From Salinisphaera sp. Q1T1-3 (GTDB lineage Bacteria; Pseudomonadota; Gammaproteobacteria; Nevskiales; Salinisphaeraceae): DNA of 64,000 bases. Positions 12,107 to 55,215 of the stretch are shown here, piece after piece. Made by a program: the position numbers and the translations under genes. Location: NCBI RefSeq assembly GCF_003602005.1, contig NZ_QZWD01000011.1:1-64000 (forward strand), written 5' to 3'. Numbering within the stretch: the first letter of the stretch is position 1; every line of letters begins with the position of its first letter. The notes beneath the pieces are model-generated. The model did no database searches. It was not told the origin of the DNA and saw only the letters and a list, made by a program, of their open reading frames with translations.

Positions 12107-12562
12107 TCAGGTGGCCGCCGAAGCCTCACGCAGTACGAATGTCGCCCGCGCGAAGGCGATCGGCCTGTCCGGGTTGTCCTGCCAGCATTGCGCCTGAACC
12201 TGGGCCACATGGCGACCGGCCCGGATCAGGCGTGCCGAAGCAATGCACTCGGCCGGCCCTGCCGAGCGCCAGTAGTCGATCGTGAAATCGACCGGGTCCG
12301 GCAAGCGCGGCGCCGGCGTGTCGATCAGGGCCTCGAACTGCATTGCCAGTTCCAGCAGGGCCGCCAGCGTGCCGCCGTGCAACGCCGGCAGGCTGGCGTT
12401 ACCGATATGTGCGTCCCGATACGGCATGACATAAGCGCGGCGCCCGGGCGCATCGGTCCGCACGATCAGACCGAGATAGCGCGCATATGGCACGGCGGCG
12501 ATCATTGCCTCGTCGTCGCCGGCGGCCAGAGCCGAGGCCAGGGTACTGCCACGCACGCTCAT
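12107..12562 (-). CDS. PaaI-family hotdog thioesterase, second of a pair
   Basis: The 151-residue protein contains a single hotdog domain with the PaaI/YigI-like core HGGTLAALLELAMQFEAL (about residues 62-79) preceding the central helix, then DFTIDYWRSAG and RHVAQVQAQCW strands. Such proteins hydrolyse acyl-CoA esters in the cytoplasm; the substrate is not evident. It overlaps the upstream paralog by four bases (ATGA), so the two are probably made together and may form a heteromer. Confidence 0.8.
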   Translation of the reverse strand: MSVRGSTLASALAAGDDEAMIAAVPYARYLGLIVRTDAPGRRAYVMPYRDAHIGNASLPALHGGTLAALLELAMQFEALIDTPAPRLPDPVDFTIDYWRSAGPAECIASARLIRAGRHVAQVQAQCWQDNPDRPIAFARATFVLREASAAT

Positions 12563-13017
12563 GTGGGCGCCAGCCGGCCGGTCCGGGCGAATGTGGCCGT
12601 GGCCCGCGCGACCGGGCGCGTCGGGTCGTCCTGGTGCAGTACGGCGGTGACGAAGGCCATGCGCTGTGTCACATGATGACAGTCGGCCACGACATCCAGC
12701 GCCGACCCGGCAACTGCCGGGCGCAGATGATCCATGCGCAGATCGAGCGTGGCGATGGCCGAGCGGGCCGACAGAGTCAGAAAGACCGCCAATCCGCAGG
12801 TGGCATCGGCTGCGACGGCCGCGATGCCGGTATGCCAGAGCCCGGCATCGATATCGCCCAGAAATACGTCGCGATACGGCAGGCGCATGTGGACCGACGG
12901 CGGTCCCGCATCAACGAGCGTCAGCCCGATGGCCAGACTGTGCGGAATGGCGGCATGGAAACGCTGGGCAAGCCTTGCCCATGCTTCCGGGTCGATCTGG
13001 TGGTGCGATTCGATCAT
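12559..13017 (-). CDS. PaaI-family hotdog thioesterase-like, first of a pair
   Basis: The 152-residue product is a single hotdog domain paralogous to the following gene: RLPYRDVFLGDIDAGLWHTGIAAVAADATCGL fits the core where the paralog has the canonical HGG. Here the motif reads WHTG, so a catalytic or oxyanion residue may differ. The ATG at 13017 was chosen because it matches the paralog's N-terminus; a GTG at 13089 would add 24 basic residues. The pair looks like a duplicated thioesterase with diverged active sites. Confidence 0.72.
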   Translation of the reverse strand: MIESHHQIDPEAWARLAQRFHAAIPHSLAIGLTLVDAGPPSVHMRLPYRDVFLGDIDAGLWHTGIAAVAADATCGLAVFLTLSARSAIATLDLRMDHLRPAVAGSALDVVADCHHVTQRMAFVTAVLHQDDPTRPVARATATFARTGRLAPT

Positions 13018-13154
13018 TGCCTCAAGATAGCGGGCGCGCGCAGCGGTGTCATGCCGATTGCGCGCCTCGGTATTTCTCCCCGCCGACACGGCGCATCCAT
13101 GGCACGTAGACTGGGATCAGAACCATTCGGCCTTCACGATCACGCGCAACGTTC

Positions 13155-16435: not shown

Positions 16436-16468
16436 CACGCCATCGGCCCGGACCGCCATGATGCAGAC

Positions 16469-16749
16469 TTAGGGAACCTCTGATCTATTCATCTACGGTC
16501 GCGCCGGTGTCTTTTGCGCGCATCTGACAAGACGCCGCGAGCGCCGTTTGCTGAATGCAAATGAGCGAGCGGCAACGCCGCTCAGGCGCGCGCAAAAGCC
16601 CGGCCGCCAAGCGGTTTGGCCCAAAAGGCCGCGCTACGGCGTTGCATGGCTGGATCATGGCGTGGCTATGACGCGGCGCCATGCGCCTTGTATCGTGGCC
16701 TTCGGGGACTCAAACGCGACCGTGGATGAATAGATCAGCGGTTCCTTAG
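16469..16749. mobile_element. MITE copy 1 (273 bp plus TTAG target duplications)
   Basis: The 273-bp element (16473-16745) has terminal inverted repeats of about 24 bp, GGAACC(T/G)CTGATCTATTCAT at each end, and is bounded by TTAG on both sides as a 4-bp target duplication. It encodes no transposase; the short frames inside are not credible genes. TTAG/CTAA duplications are typical of IS5-group transposases, so a related IS elsewhere probably moves it. A second copy, inverted and about 98% identical by eye, lies at 22847-23127. Confidence 0.88.
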
Positions 16750-16854
16750 GGCCGGGATAGGCCGGTCCGGCCATTTCAGCCGGCCCTATCTGCCGACGAA
16801 ACGATCCACAGCCTGTGGACAGATGCCGCGTCTCGCGTCGCTCTGGCGGCTGGG

Positions 16855-17883
16855 CTATTCGAAATGCGCGTGCCAGCGTTTGATCGCGACCTGATCCTTG
16901 ACCAGCTCCAGCGTCTCGATCAGGGCATCCCGCACTTCATCCGATGCGCCTTCGGCGTTCTCGGCCAGGGTGCGCTGGATGACGCTGTCCACCACATCGG
17001 CGACCAGGGCATCGAACTCGGCCGAGCTCAGACCGCTGACGGCTTCGTCGAGCACGTGATTGACGGTGTCGCGAATGGCGGCATCGAGCGCTTCGGAGAC
17101 GAAACGGCCCAGCATCGGCACGCGCTCGAGACCCGCCAGCGCCGGATTGGCGTCCACGGCCCGATTGACCACGCGGGCCACATACGCCTGCATCTGTTCG
17201 CGATTGTCCTGATAGGCCGCGACCACGGCGTTTTCCAGCTGGCTGCTGATGGCCGCCGTAAGCTGATTCTGTCGCGGCGCGATCACGTCGCTGACGACGC
17301 GGCGGGTCATGGTCTGGCCGCCCGAGCGCATTTCCTCCTGCGCTCCGCTGAGCACGTTGATGACCACCCGGTCGGAGATCTCCTCGACCACGATGTCGTA
17401 ATAGACCATGAGCTGGCGATACACCCACCACGTGCGGATATCGATCACCGACAAGCGCTGCAACCGCATGAGGATCGAGATCACGCGCAGAACGCGCAGA
17501 AAACGAAACCCTGCGACCGGGATACAGCCCAGCACGTCGTACCAGCGCGCGAAGGGATAGAAATACCAGCGGTGGTAACGCTTCTGGACGATCGCCAACG
17601 TCCAGCCGGCCAGCACATCGGCCACGAAGACCGCCACGAAGAACAGATCGATCTGGCCGAAGCGGGCATGGATGGTCTCGCCGTACCAGTGCGTTGCATT
17701 CGGCGCGATGGCATTCAGCCCGTCTGCAACCGGGCCGAGACTATAGGCCAGATCGAAGACGATGAGCGCCAGATTGATACAGACGAGCGCCACGATGGCC
17801 AGATCCCAGATCAACAGCACGCGTTCGGCCGGCGAGCGCTGGGCGTCGAGCATGTCGGCCGGCGTCGGCGTGCGCTCGCGCAT
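16855..17883 (-). CDS. voltage-sensor-like membrane protein without a pore domain
   Basis: The 342-residue protein has hydrophobic helices at about residues 22-46, 77-99 and 113-124. An S4-like arginine ladder follows: R127, R130, R133, R140 and R143 within GFRFLRVLRVISILMRLQRL. This resembles the S1-S4 voltage-sensor domain of ion channels. No S5/P-loop/S6 pore follows. Instead about 190 residues of soluble, acidic, helical sequence extend to the C-terminus (many AVVAAYQ, LDEAVSGLSS type helices). The ATG lies 3 bp after the patatin gene's stop, so the two are co-transcribed. Function is unknown; a voltage- or lipid-responsive membrane protein is possible. Confidence 0.7.
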   Translation of the reverse strand: MRERTPTPADMLDAQRSPAERVLLIWDLAIVALVCINLALIVFDLAYSLGPVADGLNAIAPNATHWYGETIHARFGQIDLFFVAVFVADVLAGWTLAIVQKRYHRWYFYPFARWYDVLGCIPVAGFRFLRVLRVISILMRLQRLSVIDIRTWWVYRQLMVYYDIVVEEISDRVVINVLSGAQEEMRSGGQTMTRRVVSDVIAPRQNQLTAAISSQLENAVVAAYQDNREQMQAYVARVVNRAVDANPALAGLERVPMLGRFVSEALDAAIRDTVNHVLDEAVSGLSSAEFDALVADVVDSVIQRTLAENAEGASDEVRDALIETLELVKDQVAIKRWHAHFE

Positions 17884-17885
17884 GG

Positions 17886-19319
17886 TCACGAACGAACTCC
17901 GGCCGCCTCGACGGACACGGTCTCGAGCATGGCACGGACTTCGGGCAGTTGGCTTTCCATGGTCTGATAGCCCCAGTTGACAGCCAGTTCCAGGCCCGAT
18001 CGGCCCGGTACGAGATTGATCGGCGACAGCGTGCGCCGAAAGCGCACCATCGTATCCGCGTAGACCCGATTGATGCGCATCTGCATCTGCACGGTCTGGG
18101 TAATCGGCCACAGCCAGGCGTTCTTCGGGTCGATGCGCGGGACGAAACAGTCGAAGGCCAGGTAATAGCCGTTGCGCAGCCCGGCCCGGCCATTCGCCAC
18201 GCCGCGCCAGGCTGCGCGGGTCGGGACGTTGTCCGCCACCCCGCCATCGACGATCGCCGCCAGCTCGTCGCGCGACATGAGTTCGGCGAATATCTCGCGT
18301 GTGACACCGGCCCGAGGGCTCGGCTCGTACTGCAGTATCGACGGCACCGCCGCCGAGAAGCCGGCCGCATCGACCGCATGGATCGAGCGGGTGAGCGCAT
18401 CGCGCCCGAGCACGATCGGCTCGACCATGTCCGAACGGAAGAACGTGAGCAGACGGGTCAACCGCGCCGCCACGCGCAGCCGCAGCGGCAGCCAGCGCGT
18501 CGCTCGGCCCTCGCTGCGCAGCTGATCGGTCATCACACGCTCATAGGGCTGGCGCTTGAGCCCGGCAACCACGACATCGAGAGGGATTTCCAGTTCGTCG
18601 AGCCGGACCGGACGCCGGAATTCGCCGACCGACAATCGCTGATGCAGGGCGCGCAGATGCAGATGCAACAGACCGGGCATGCCGAATTCAGCGCGGCGAC
18701 GGGCCGCGGAGAACAGATCCCGATTGGTCAGCGCAGCGGCAAAGTCGACGTGCTCGGCCAGATCGGCGTGGCGGCGCTGGGCCCGCATCAGCCCGAGGAC
18801 CGCGCCCATCGAATTGCCCACGATGTAATCCGGGATCAACCCGGCCTCGTCGAGACAGGCGAACGCACCGGCATAGACATAGCCGGCACCGCCGCCACCG
18901 CCGGCGACCACGACGAGCGCGCGCTGCGCGGCCTCGCGATCAATGGTCTCGGCATCACACACCGCGGCATGGCTGGCCAAGAGCGCATCCCGGGCGAGTC
19001 GGGCCCGCACCCGGACGTCGCCGGCCGCCTCGACGGCCACCGCGAGCTTCTCTTCCTCAGGCGCCGGGCTGCGCAGCGCATCGTGGAGGTGATTGAGCAG
19101 CCAGTCGCGCAGCGAATCGATGGGCTGTGGATCGAGCGTCAGATCCGTGCCGTCGGGCAGACACAACCGATGCATGCGCGCCAGGCCCAGCGCATAGCGC
19201 AGCGCGGCATAGTCGGTATCGGCGATCCGGTCCGGCAACGCGCGACGCGCCCGCACGAGCGCGCGCTCCATGCGCTGCAGCGCCAGCCGGCCGCGTTCGT
19301 CACCCCGGTTATCCGTCAT
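17886..19319 (-). CDS. patatin-like phospholipase
   Basis: The 477-residue protein has about 130 helical N-terminal residues and then a patatin domain. The oxyanion-hole loop is GGGGGAGY (140-147), the nucleophile motif GNSMG (168-172) with Ser170, and the catalytic Asp lies in DGG (358-360), completing a Ser-Asp dyad. The oxyanion loop lacks the basic residue of the usual GGGxRG. There is no signal peptide; a hydrophobic patch near residue 285 could associate with membrane. It should hydrolyse acyl esters of lipids. It is directly followed by the voltage-sensor-like gene, and both lie in the MITE-bracketed block. Confidence 0.85.
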   Translation of the reverse strand: MTDNRGDERGRLALQRMERALVRARRALPDRIADTDYAALRYALGLARMHRLCLPDGTDLTLDPQPIDSLRDWLLNHLHDALRSPAPEEEKLAVAVEAAGDVRVRARLARDALLASHAAVCDAETIDREAAQRALVVVAGGGGGAGYVYAGAFACLDEAGLIPDYIVGNSMGAVLGLMRAQRRHADLAEHVDFAAALTNRDLFSAARRRAEFGMPGLLHLHLRALHQRLSVGEFRRPVRLDELEIPLDVVVAGLKRQPYERVMTDQLRSEGRATRWLPLRLRVAARLTRLLTFFRSDMVEPIVLGRDALTRSIHAVDAAGFSAAVPSILQYEPSPRAGVTREIFAELMSRDELAAIVDGGVADNVPTRAAWRGVANGRAGLRNGYYLAFDCFVPRIDPKNAWLWPITQTVQMQMRINRVYADTMVRFRRTLSPINLVPGRSGLELAVNWGYQTMESQLPEVRAMLETVSVEAAGVRS

Positions 19320-19371: not shown

Positions 19372-19830
19372 TCAGAGACAGACGGCGCCGGTCTTTTCCA
19401 GATAGCGCTGGTGATAGGCCTCGGCCTGATAGAAGGCCGTCAGGGTCTCGATATCGGTCGTGATCGGCCGGTTCAGCCGGGCCTGTTCGGCGTCGAGACT
19501 GGCACGAGCCAGCGCTCGCTGCGCCTCGTCGACGACGAAGATGACCGACCGATACTGGCGGCCGATATCCGGGCCCTGCCGGTTGCGCGTGGTGGGATCG
19601 TGGTGGGCCCAGAAGACCGTCAACAAATCCGCGTAGCCGACGAGCGTCGGATCGAAGACCACACGCACCGCCTCGGCATGGCCGGTCTGGCCGCCACAGA
19701 CTTGCGGATACGTCGGATTTTCCACGTGACCGCCGGCATAGCCCACGCGTGTATCCAGAACGCCGTGCCGGGCCCGGAAGATGGCTTCCGGCTTCCAGAA
19801 ACAACCCATGGCAAACGTGGCACTGGTCAT
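19372..19830 (-). CDS. msrA: peptide methionine sulfoxide reductase A
   Basis: The 152-residue protein has the MsrA active-site motif GCFWKPE at 9-15 with catalytic Cys10. The family segments VGYAGGHVENPTYPQVC and FWAHHDPTTRNRQGPDIGRQYRS follow. It reduces methionine-S-sulfoxide in proteins and free methionine in the cytoplasm. The length is near the minimal MsrA domain and there is no fused MsrB. Lone GGGTCTGTTGTCACGA-type repeat ends lie 40 bp upstream. Confidence 0.93.
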   Translation of the reverse strand: MTSATFAMGCFWKPEAIFRARHGVLDTRVGYAGGHVENPTYPQVCGGQTGHAEAVRVVFDPTLVGYADLLTVFWAHHDPTTRNRQGPDIGRQYRSVIFVVDEAQRALARASLDAEQARLNRPITTDIETLTAFYQAEAYHQRYLEKTGAVCL

Positions 19831-22806: not shown

Positions 22807-23330
22807 CTGATGGGGCCTGCCGACCCACGCCAATAGCTGTTTGCAGTTAGGGAACCTCTGATCTATTCATCCACGGTCGCGTTTGAGTCCCAAAAGGCCA
22901 CGATACAAGGCGCATGGCGCCGCGTCATAGCCACTCTATGATCCAGCCATGCAACGCCGTAGCGCGGCCTTTTGGGCCAAACCGCTTGGCGGCCGGGCTT
23001 TTGCGCGCGCCTGAGCGGCGTTGCCGCTCGCTCATTTGCATTCAGCAAACGGCGCTCGCGGCGTCTTGTCAGACGCGCGCAAAAGACACCGGCGCGACCG
23101 TAGATGAATAGATCAGAGGTTCCTTAGATGAGGCGTAGCACACCTCGTACAGTGATGCCGCGCCGGTCTGCAGGAACGCAGCATTGCCGTCGTGTTCTTG
23201 ATTGAAGACTAGTCCCGACGAATTGGGCCGCCCATGACGATTCGGGTATGGGCGCCCCGCAGCGTTGCGGGTCTGGATCATGACACGCCACGGGGCGGCA
23301 ACTCGCGCCTTGCAGAACACGATTGACGCA
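22807..23330. repeat. dispersed intergenic repeat, copy C, interrupted by MITE copy 2
   Basis: Sequence either side of MITE copy 2 matches the long repeat at 60952-61250. Left of the MITE, GACCCACGCCAATAGCTGTT corresponds to GAGTCCGCGCCAAGCGCTGTT. Right of it, GATGAGGCGT...GATTGCCGTCGTG..., GTTGCGGGTCTGGATCATG and CAACTCGCGCCTTGC correspond to the later parts. The MITE therefore jumped into a pre-existing copy. The outer ends of this copy have diverged. Confidence 0.65.
22847..23127. mobile_element. MITE copy 2 (273 bp plus TTAG target duplications), inverted
   Basis: The element spans 22851-23123, exactly 273 bp like copy 1 but in the opposite orientation. It has the same terminal inverted repeats (GGAACCTCTGATCTATTCAT) and TTAG on both sides. 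By eye it differs from copy 1 at about six positions. It contains no transposase. It sits inside a copy of the dispersed repeat family. Confidence 0.9.
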
Positions 23331-54826: not shown

Positions 54827-54897
54827 AACAGTTTCCGGTCGGCAGGCGCGCCCATCCGCACACCCAGACACGACCCGTGCGTGGACGGGCCCCCTTG

Positions 54898-55100
54898 TCA
54901 CCGGCCGGTATCCGGACTCGCAGTCAGGCCAGAGCCTGGACGCACCTTCCCGACGGCATCGTCAGTGGCTTGTCGCGTCGCACGAGACCACGCTCGTGTT
55001 GCTTACCGTTGCGGGGGCAGTATCGGCCTTGGATACGCCTGTAAAACGCATCCGCACCGATTTCCCGTTTACCCGTATCGCGACCCGATACGGCACCCGT
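54898..55100 (-). ncRNA. cobalamin (AdoCbl) riboswitch
   Basis: On the minus strand, in order, the region shows the conserved cobalamin-riboswitch boxes: GGGAAATCGGTGCGGATGCG (P3 region), TGCCCCCGCAACGGTAAGC, the B12-box core AAGCCACTG, TCGGGAAGGTG and the closing GAGTCCGGATACCGGCC. It sits in the leader of btuB, ending 72 bp before its ATG. Such elements block translation or transcription when adenosylcobalamin binds. The boundaries are approximate. Confidence 0.95.
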
Positions 55101-55215
55101 GACGCTCTGCATGCTAGGGGCTCGACACGCCGGGCGCAATACGCAATTTTTCGCTTATCCGGATAAGCGGATATACTCTGTCGCCTGTATTTGCGCATTC
55201 GCTCGGAAACACGGC

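Follow-up and report, generated by a model that had tools for sequence, protein, structure and literature searches.

A protein encoded in the salt-loving bacterium Salinisphaera belongs to a bacterial family that, by profile comparison, is homologous to the voltage-sensor domains (VSDs; helices S1 to S4) of ion channels and is predicted to carry about 200 soluble residues after S4, with no S5-S6 pore. Judged from its sequence, the protein is most likely a stand-alone sensor of membrane potential. Its gene lies directly downstream of a gene for a patatin-like phospholipase, and this pairing was seen only in Salinisphaera; the sensor family is a larger finding than the gene pair.

A voltage-sensor domain without a pore

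Both genes lie on the minus strand of the window, as we call the whole 64,000-nucleotide stretch of Salinisphaera DNA that was analyzed. Their features are as follows.

16855 to 17889, minus strand: stand-alone voltage-sensor-domain protein, 342 amino acids (aa) from the ATG at 17883 or possibly 344 aa from the GTG at 17889
17746 to 17817, minus strand: S1, residues 23 to 46, with D27, N37, and D44 conserved (hydropathy and conservation in 120 sequences)
17590 to 17658, minus strand: S2, residues 76 to 98, with F86 and D/E89 as the charge-transfer positions (aligned to channel S2)
17518 to 17568, minus strand: S3, residues 106 to 122, with the family motif HWYDVLGCIP and the counter-charge D116 (conservation)
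17452 to 17505, minus strand: S4, residues 127 to 144, with R127, R130, R133, R140, and R143 (conservation and profile alignment)
16858 to 17451, minus strand: C-terminal soluble domain, residues 145 to 342, without a transmembrane (TM) segment (conservation and TM-window scan)
17886 to 17889, minus strand: GTGA stop-start overlap of the patatin and sensor genes (an overlapping start is possible in 12 of 13 genomes)
17886 to 19319, minus strand: patatin-like phospholipase, 477 aa (PF01734, 63.5 bits)
18810 to 18812, minus strand: codon of catalytic Ser170 (GNSMG)
18246 to 18248, minus strand: codon of catalytic Asp358 (DGG)

The 342-residue open reading frame (ORF; 16855 to 17883) and its five S4 arginines were located just as the original prediction had placed them. 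The spacing of the two genes differs from the 3 bp given there: the sensor ATG follows the patatin TGA by 2 bp, and a GTG two codons before that ATG (17887 to 17889) overlaps the patatin stop. Of 13 genomes of the genus, 12 offer a start codon that overlaps the patatin stop in this way, and the product may therefore be the 344-aa form; in the remaining one, L006, the genes are separated by 16 bp. Translational coupling of the two genes through the GTGA overlap is possible. Scans of the sequence for promoters and terminators found none.

The Pfam Ion_trans model (PF00520), which we take to describe a VSD plus a pore, scored the window sensor at 14.2 bits, under the 25-bit cut-off; 8 of 16 family members matched it at E values up to 1 (best, 0.0073). 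Since the Ion_trans score fell below the cut-off, homology was tested by comparison of profiles. The family sequences came from 127 sensor neighborhoods, in 123 of which the gene caller had found the sensor (it missed those of the window, L051, L091, and L093). With the window protein added by hand, this gave 124 rows and 120 distinct sequences, among which differing start calls may leave near-duplicates and some genomes are present twice, from two collections; nine rows of the first sequence list were omitted from set A3. The profile of the 120 distinct members matched 15 Kv channels with an hhalign E value of 7e-11 (probability score, 97), the three short Kv channels among those 15 with an E value of 2e-11, and 26 Nav channels (the set left once L236, for which the wrong ORF had been picked, and channel ORFs of at least 420 aa were removed) with an E value of 4e-5 (probability score, 70). 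Nine control profiles, comprising two reversed channel sets and seven unrelated families of neighboring proteins, reached a probability score of 0.4 or less. The aligned stretch covered residues 24 to 142, S1 through S4, and ended there. A search of PDB sequences with the sensor returned ten weak matches (best E value, 0.14), of which nine were to ion transport proteins, and a search with the A2 profile returned two designed helical proteins (best E value, 0.0091).

Conservation within the family follows the pattern of a voltage sensor. Among the 120 distinct homologs, arginine is present at position 127 in 119, at 130 and 133 in all 120, and at 140 in 119, while position 143 is R in 95 and K in 18. 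The counter-charge positions are likewise acidic (position 116, D in 115 and E in 5; position 89, D in 87 and E in 33), and the charge-transfer aromatic at position 86 is F in 103 and Y in 11. Other near-invariant sites are D44 (116), N37 (114), W114 (120), and P122 (120). Thus, the features that define a VSD, arginine at every third S4 residue and acidic counter-charges in S2 and S3, each occur in 119 to 120 of the 120 sequences. The S4-type arginine ladder of the original prediction is borne out by these counts, and near-invariant R127, R130, and R133 together with a channel profile match far above the controls indicate that the arginine pattern is not a chance one.

The same data bear on whether the VSD fold serves as a mere membrane anchor that does not sense voltage. 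An anchor would fit the very short S3-S4 connection (11 residues from D116 to R127) and the strict three-residue spacing, which is kept only at R127, R130, and R133, with R140 and R143 at the end of S4. However, the gating arginines and their counter-charges are more strictly conserved than an anchor would presumably require: the mean entropy is 0.43 bits in S3, the lowest among the segments measured, and 1.00 bits in S4, versus 1.99 bits in the C-terminal part. We therefore consider an anchor improbable.

No pore was recognized. None of the 120 distinct homologs has a K-channel or Nav selectivity filter, and none of the 117 that carry the S4 motif has a TM-like window past it, whereas most channel controls were positive in the same filter and TM scan (15 of 16, 23 of 26, and 13 of 15). 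Hydropathy of the family resolves S1, S2, and a compact S3-S4, with no strong peak past residue 150. A split pore partner encoded next door was also considered, and none was recognized among the listed neighbors, by eye and with Pfam for a subset. These results agree with the voltage-sensor-like domain without a pore that had been proposed. Compared with Kv and Nav channels, the sensor has the same S1-S4 order, the S2 F-x-x-D/E, the S3 aspartate, and the S4 R-x-x-R-x-x-R of PF00520, but it has no S5-S6 and no selectivity filter, its S3-S4 is very short, and its C-terminal domain is a different one. That domain, with conserved EEISDR, PR, RxPMLG, and VKxQVxxxRW motifs, would lie on the cytoplasmic side.

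The S1-S4 domain could itself conduct, as a bacterial Hv-like proton channel or a leak channel. Eukaryotic stand-alone VSDs can conduct protons, as a passage of PMC10377628 notes for Hv1, and Hv1, also a VSD on its own, resembles the sensor in the regular spacing of three S4 arginines. The S4 tryptophan of Hv1 (RxWRxxR) is absent from the sensor, however; the window protein has RFLRVLR and the family consensus is RxLRVLR. In addition, position 37, which we presume to align with the selectivity residue Asp112 of Hv1, is N in 114 of the 120 homologs; four others have S and two have D. Neutralization of Asp112 in Hv1 gives anion permeability, according to a passage of PMC10377628. Asparagine at the presumed S1 selectivity position and the missing S4 tryptophan both argue against Hv-type conduction; we rejected an Hv-type proton channel and hold conduction of either kind to be quite improbable. 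Motifs resembling the S2-S4 of voltage sensors have also been reported for TolQ, MotA, and PomA, in a passage of PMC6768053. Only one weak PF01618 match was seen among 16 sensor family members (E value, 0.48), and the match to channel VSDs is far stronger; TolQ and MotA are a different family.

Spread and architecture of the sensor family

Relatives of the sensor at E values below 1e-60 were present in 19 of 41 near relatives and in 19 of 85 genomes of the order. In a sample of the class, 9 of 369 genomes had relatives (E value, 1e-12), three of the nine being Salinisphaera, and in a sample of the phylum, 11 of 224 did (E value, 1e-8), all within the same class. The family was found in 94 of 390 genomes and 33 of 142 genera of one gammaproteobacterial order, that of G446 (E value, 1e-30); in 3 of 197 genomes of another order, all of one genus; and in 1 of 1, 1 of 2, and 1 of 4 genomes of three small orders. 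In a contig collection, at least 566 of at least 594 pattern matches encode sensor relatives, and 80 of these were kept.

A second branch within the order consists of six proteins of 252 to 276 aa, all six with the S4 motif and none with a channel filter; in one protein, the stretch past S4 includes a borderline hydrophobic window (1.72, against a threshold of 1.6). This branch matches the sensor family overall (E value, 6.8e-20) and Kv channels (E value, 1.7e-12; its own controls scored a probability of 2.9 or less). It also matches the C-terminal domain of the family taken alone (E value, 1.5e-9; probability score, 96; seven controls, 0.3 or less). Because the second branch matches both parts, the VSD and the soluble domain look like one old architecture.

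The patatin gene and its pairing with the sensor

The partner gene encodes a predicted phospholipase with intact catalytic motifs. Its PF01734 score of 63.5 bits compares with a cut-off of 27.7, and GxSxG, DG[GA], and the oxyanion glycines are all present (GGGG at 140 to 143, G168-N-S170-M-G172, and D358-G-G). The catalytic Ser170 and Asp358, described earlier as intact, are invariant across 13 aligned patatins, as are G168, G172, G359, and G360. A search of PDB sequences matched PlpD (E value, 0.0011). The protein shares the Ser-Asp dyad and glycine-rich oxyanion loop of patatin-like phospholipases but belongs to a rare subfamily with its own N-terminal part of about 130 residues, found in 3 of the 369 class genomes, all Salinisphaera. 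By eye it has no obvious signal peptide, and thus it should share a compartment with the soluble domain of the sensor.

Within Salinisphaera, the sensor was found in 13 of 14 genomes, the patatin in the same 13, and the two genes were adjacent in 13 of 13; G010, an 81% complete genome, has neither. Beyond the genus, the result differs. When called genes of the 127 sensor neighborhoods were searched by phmmer, a patatin matched in 13, all Salinisphaera and some of them the same genome twice; a 14th patatin-bearing neighborhood, L093, is also Salinisphaera and its gene had been missed by the caller. Three genomes that belong to the same family but to other genera lack a full-length patatin of the window type, and G024, G028, and G031 have a 38 to 42% identical patatin on contigs other than those of their sensor-type matches. 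Adjacency across unrelated lineages was not seen, and a conserved two-gene system beyond Salinisphaera is not supported. The original prediction had proposed a two-gene system and had named rare adjacency of homologs as evidence against it; the tight pairing stands within Salinisphaera, and outside that genus the genes were not seen adjacent. Since the sensor family occurs in many lineages without a patatin of this type, the patatin cannot be its general partner.

The gene order around the pair suggests how it formed. Three sensor loci come from other genera of the family, and in two of them (L041 and L043; Pfam for L043) the gene immediately upstream is msrA; the window, by eye, has an msrA-like gene (19372 to 19830) and a metallo-beta-lactamase-fold protein upstream of the patatin. 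The patatin may thus have slotted into an existing gene order. On a tree of 57 rows, eight of them Salinisphaera, the pairing requires one change (support, 98/80; 98% of bootstrap trees). The adjacency, the msrA context, and this single change point to one origin of the pairing, apparently beside msrA, after which it was kept. Downstream of the sensor, 11 of the 13 Salinisphaera genomes (L002 to L005 and L007 to L013) have a DUF302-type gene, judged by eye to encode a lipoprotein (example, L054); no such gene was found in the window or in G001 within the stretch searched.

Patatins occur as defense effectors in other systems, and the pair could accordingly be a phage-defense or toxin-type module whose lipase is freed by membrane damage. 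PADLOC gave no match for the pair or nine neighboring ORFs, and a pair carried by 13 of the 14 Salinisphaera genomes does not show the patchy distribution of a defense gene. We rejected the defense role suggested in the original prediction and regard it as extremely improbable.

Several other elements were observed in the window. An element of about 275 to 320 bp resembling a MITE occurs twice (16448 to 16770 and 22851 to 23123), with one copy just downstream of the sensor; it has long terminal inverted repeats (56 nt, 79%), and one 14-base stretch matching its end lies close to a K-channel gene in this genome (L267). A cobalamin riboswitch lies at 54886 to 55115 on the minus strand (87.9 bits), and two tandem thioesterase-like ORFs were recognized by eye at 12107 to 13089 on the minus strand.

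Gene neighborhoods and the role of the sensor

Neighbors of the sensor outside Salinisphaera are diverse. In 28 loci from 18 families, with no Salinisphaera among them, lipid-related genes on the same strand encode PldA, a 4HBT thioesterase, and a PlsC-like acyltransferase. At the same loci, Pfam identified non-lipid neighbors on the same strand (nitroreductase, MMPL, SIMPL, amidase, and MltD-like), and further same-strand neighbors encode a globin, MFS, methyltransferase, DUF1631-GGDEF-EAL, Exo_endo_phos, and cobalamin adenosyltransferase. The lipid-enzyme category was set after seeing the data, and so we make no statistical claim for it. In G018, the PldA gene starts 7 bp after the sensor stop. 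A 4HBT-type thioesterase gene immediately precedes the sensor in 40 of 78 named loci, most of them titled as Halomonadaceae (Pfam for one). An AtoE-like transporter gene was noted by eye in 42 of 80 sensor neighborhoods (L091 to L170).

Family f13 resembles the Acinetobacter records, and on that basis we take it to be Moraxellaceae. In all four of its loci the sensor is followed by minC-like and minD-like genes, and in three of the four it is preceded by an acyltransferase-like gene, by eye and with Pfam for one minC-like and one acyltransferase-like gene. In Acinetobacter itself, the sensor lies between an acyltransferase gene and minCDE (L282, 3716 to 4762; L296, 4950 to 5996), and two of seven plasmid-collection records with a match annotate it as "preprotein translocase subunit SecA." Two contigs are labeled "Acinetobacter phage MD-2021a," and we considered and rejected a phage origin of the gene. 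The one opened, L296 (CAKLQH020000030.1), carries minCDE, dut, rep, and ftsK and resembles a bacterial chromosome. A passage of PMC4829611 reports that Bacillus subtilis MinD loses its membrane pattern on depolarization; this dependence on polarization makes the minCDE context of the sensor a lead, and we take it as no more.

These neighborhoods leave room for the alternative that the sensor does detect voltage but has an independent, general job, such as envelope or membrane homeostasis; the patatin in Salinisphaera would then be no more than a co-transcribed neighbor, brought into the operon with no physical coupling. The variety of neighbors (msrA, PldA phospholipase A1, 4HBT thioesterase, acyltransferase with MinC, amidase, MltD-like, and cobalamin adenosyltransferase), the single change on the tree, and conservation of the C-terminal domain also in lineages without the patatin would all be expected if so. 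Set against this, the overlapping start is kept in 12 of 13 genomes even though the proteins are only about 62 to 74% identical to those of the window, and an enzyme acting on lipids or acyl groups, as we noticed after the fact, is a same-strand neighbor in several unrelated lineages. An independent general job is, on balance, a real possibility.

Tentatively, we favor control of the patatin by the sensor, which the VSD homology, the conserved gating charges, the lack of a pore, and the adjacency of the genes, with a possible start overlapping the patatin stop, make plausible. The Ion_trans score under the cut-off and the Nav probability score of only 70 count against this reading, as do the many lineages whose sensor lacks this patatin and the msrA gene found in its place in related genera. 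The S4 arginines would sit in the membrane field, so that a change in membrane potential would move S4, and the conserved EEISDR segment would relay this movement to the soluble domain in the cytoplasm. In Salinisphaera, that domain would keep the patatin, a presumed cytosolic protein, at the inner membrane and raise or lower its phospholipase activity as the membrane potential changes. Such a mechanism would resemble that of the voltage-sensing phosphatases, with the enzyme separate and co-expressed: in Ci-VSP, a VSD controls a cytoplasmic enzyme acting on membrane lipids, which offers an analogy of mechanism, but there the enzyme is a fused phosphatase, whereas the partner here is a separate patatin gene confined to one genus.

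A broader proposal, which we consider doubtful, is that Gammaproteobacteria have a widespread membrane-potential receptor, a pore-less VSD with its own cytoplasmic output domain, that has been wired lineage by lineage so that voltage would directly gate lipid remodeling or division-site control. The wirings would be to patatin in Salinisphaera, possibly to PldA in one relative, and to acyltransferase-MinCDE in Acinetobacter and its kin.

Stand-alone VSDs are known in eukaryotes (Hv1, VSP, and TMEM266; PMC6392501). Human TMEM266, whose function is there described as unknown, is like the sensor in having S1-S4, no pore, and partially structured cytoplasmic termini (PMC6392501); the likeness is one of described features, and unlike the sensor, TMEM266 is a human protein with no enzyme gene attached. 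For prokaryotes, a passage of a 2023 review states that every VSD known to date is accompanied by an S5-S6 pore (PMC10377628). Searches of an open-licence library listed no paper with a title or opening abstract lines on a bacterial pore-less VSD family. The presence of the sensor family in nearly a quarter of the sampled genomes of one order (94 of 390) would contradict the rule as it is worded in that passage (PMC10377628). With such a family, bacteria would have a candidate for direct sensing of the membrane potential, and research on how a VSD can act on targets other than a pore would gain a simple model.
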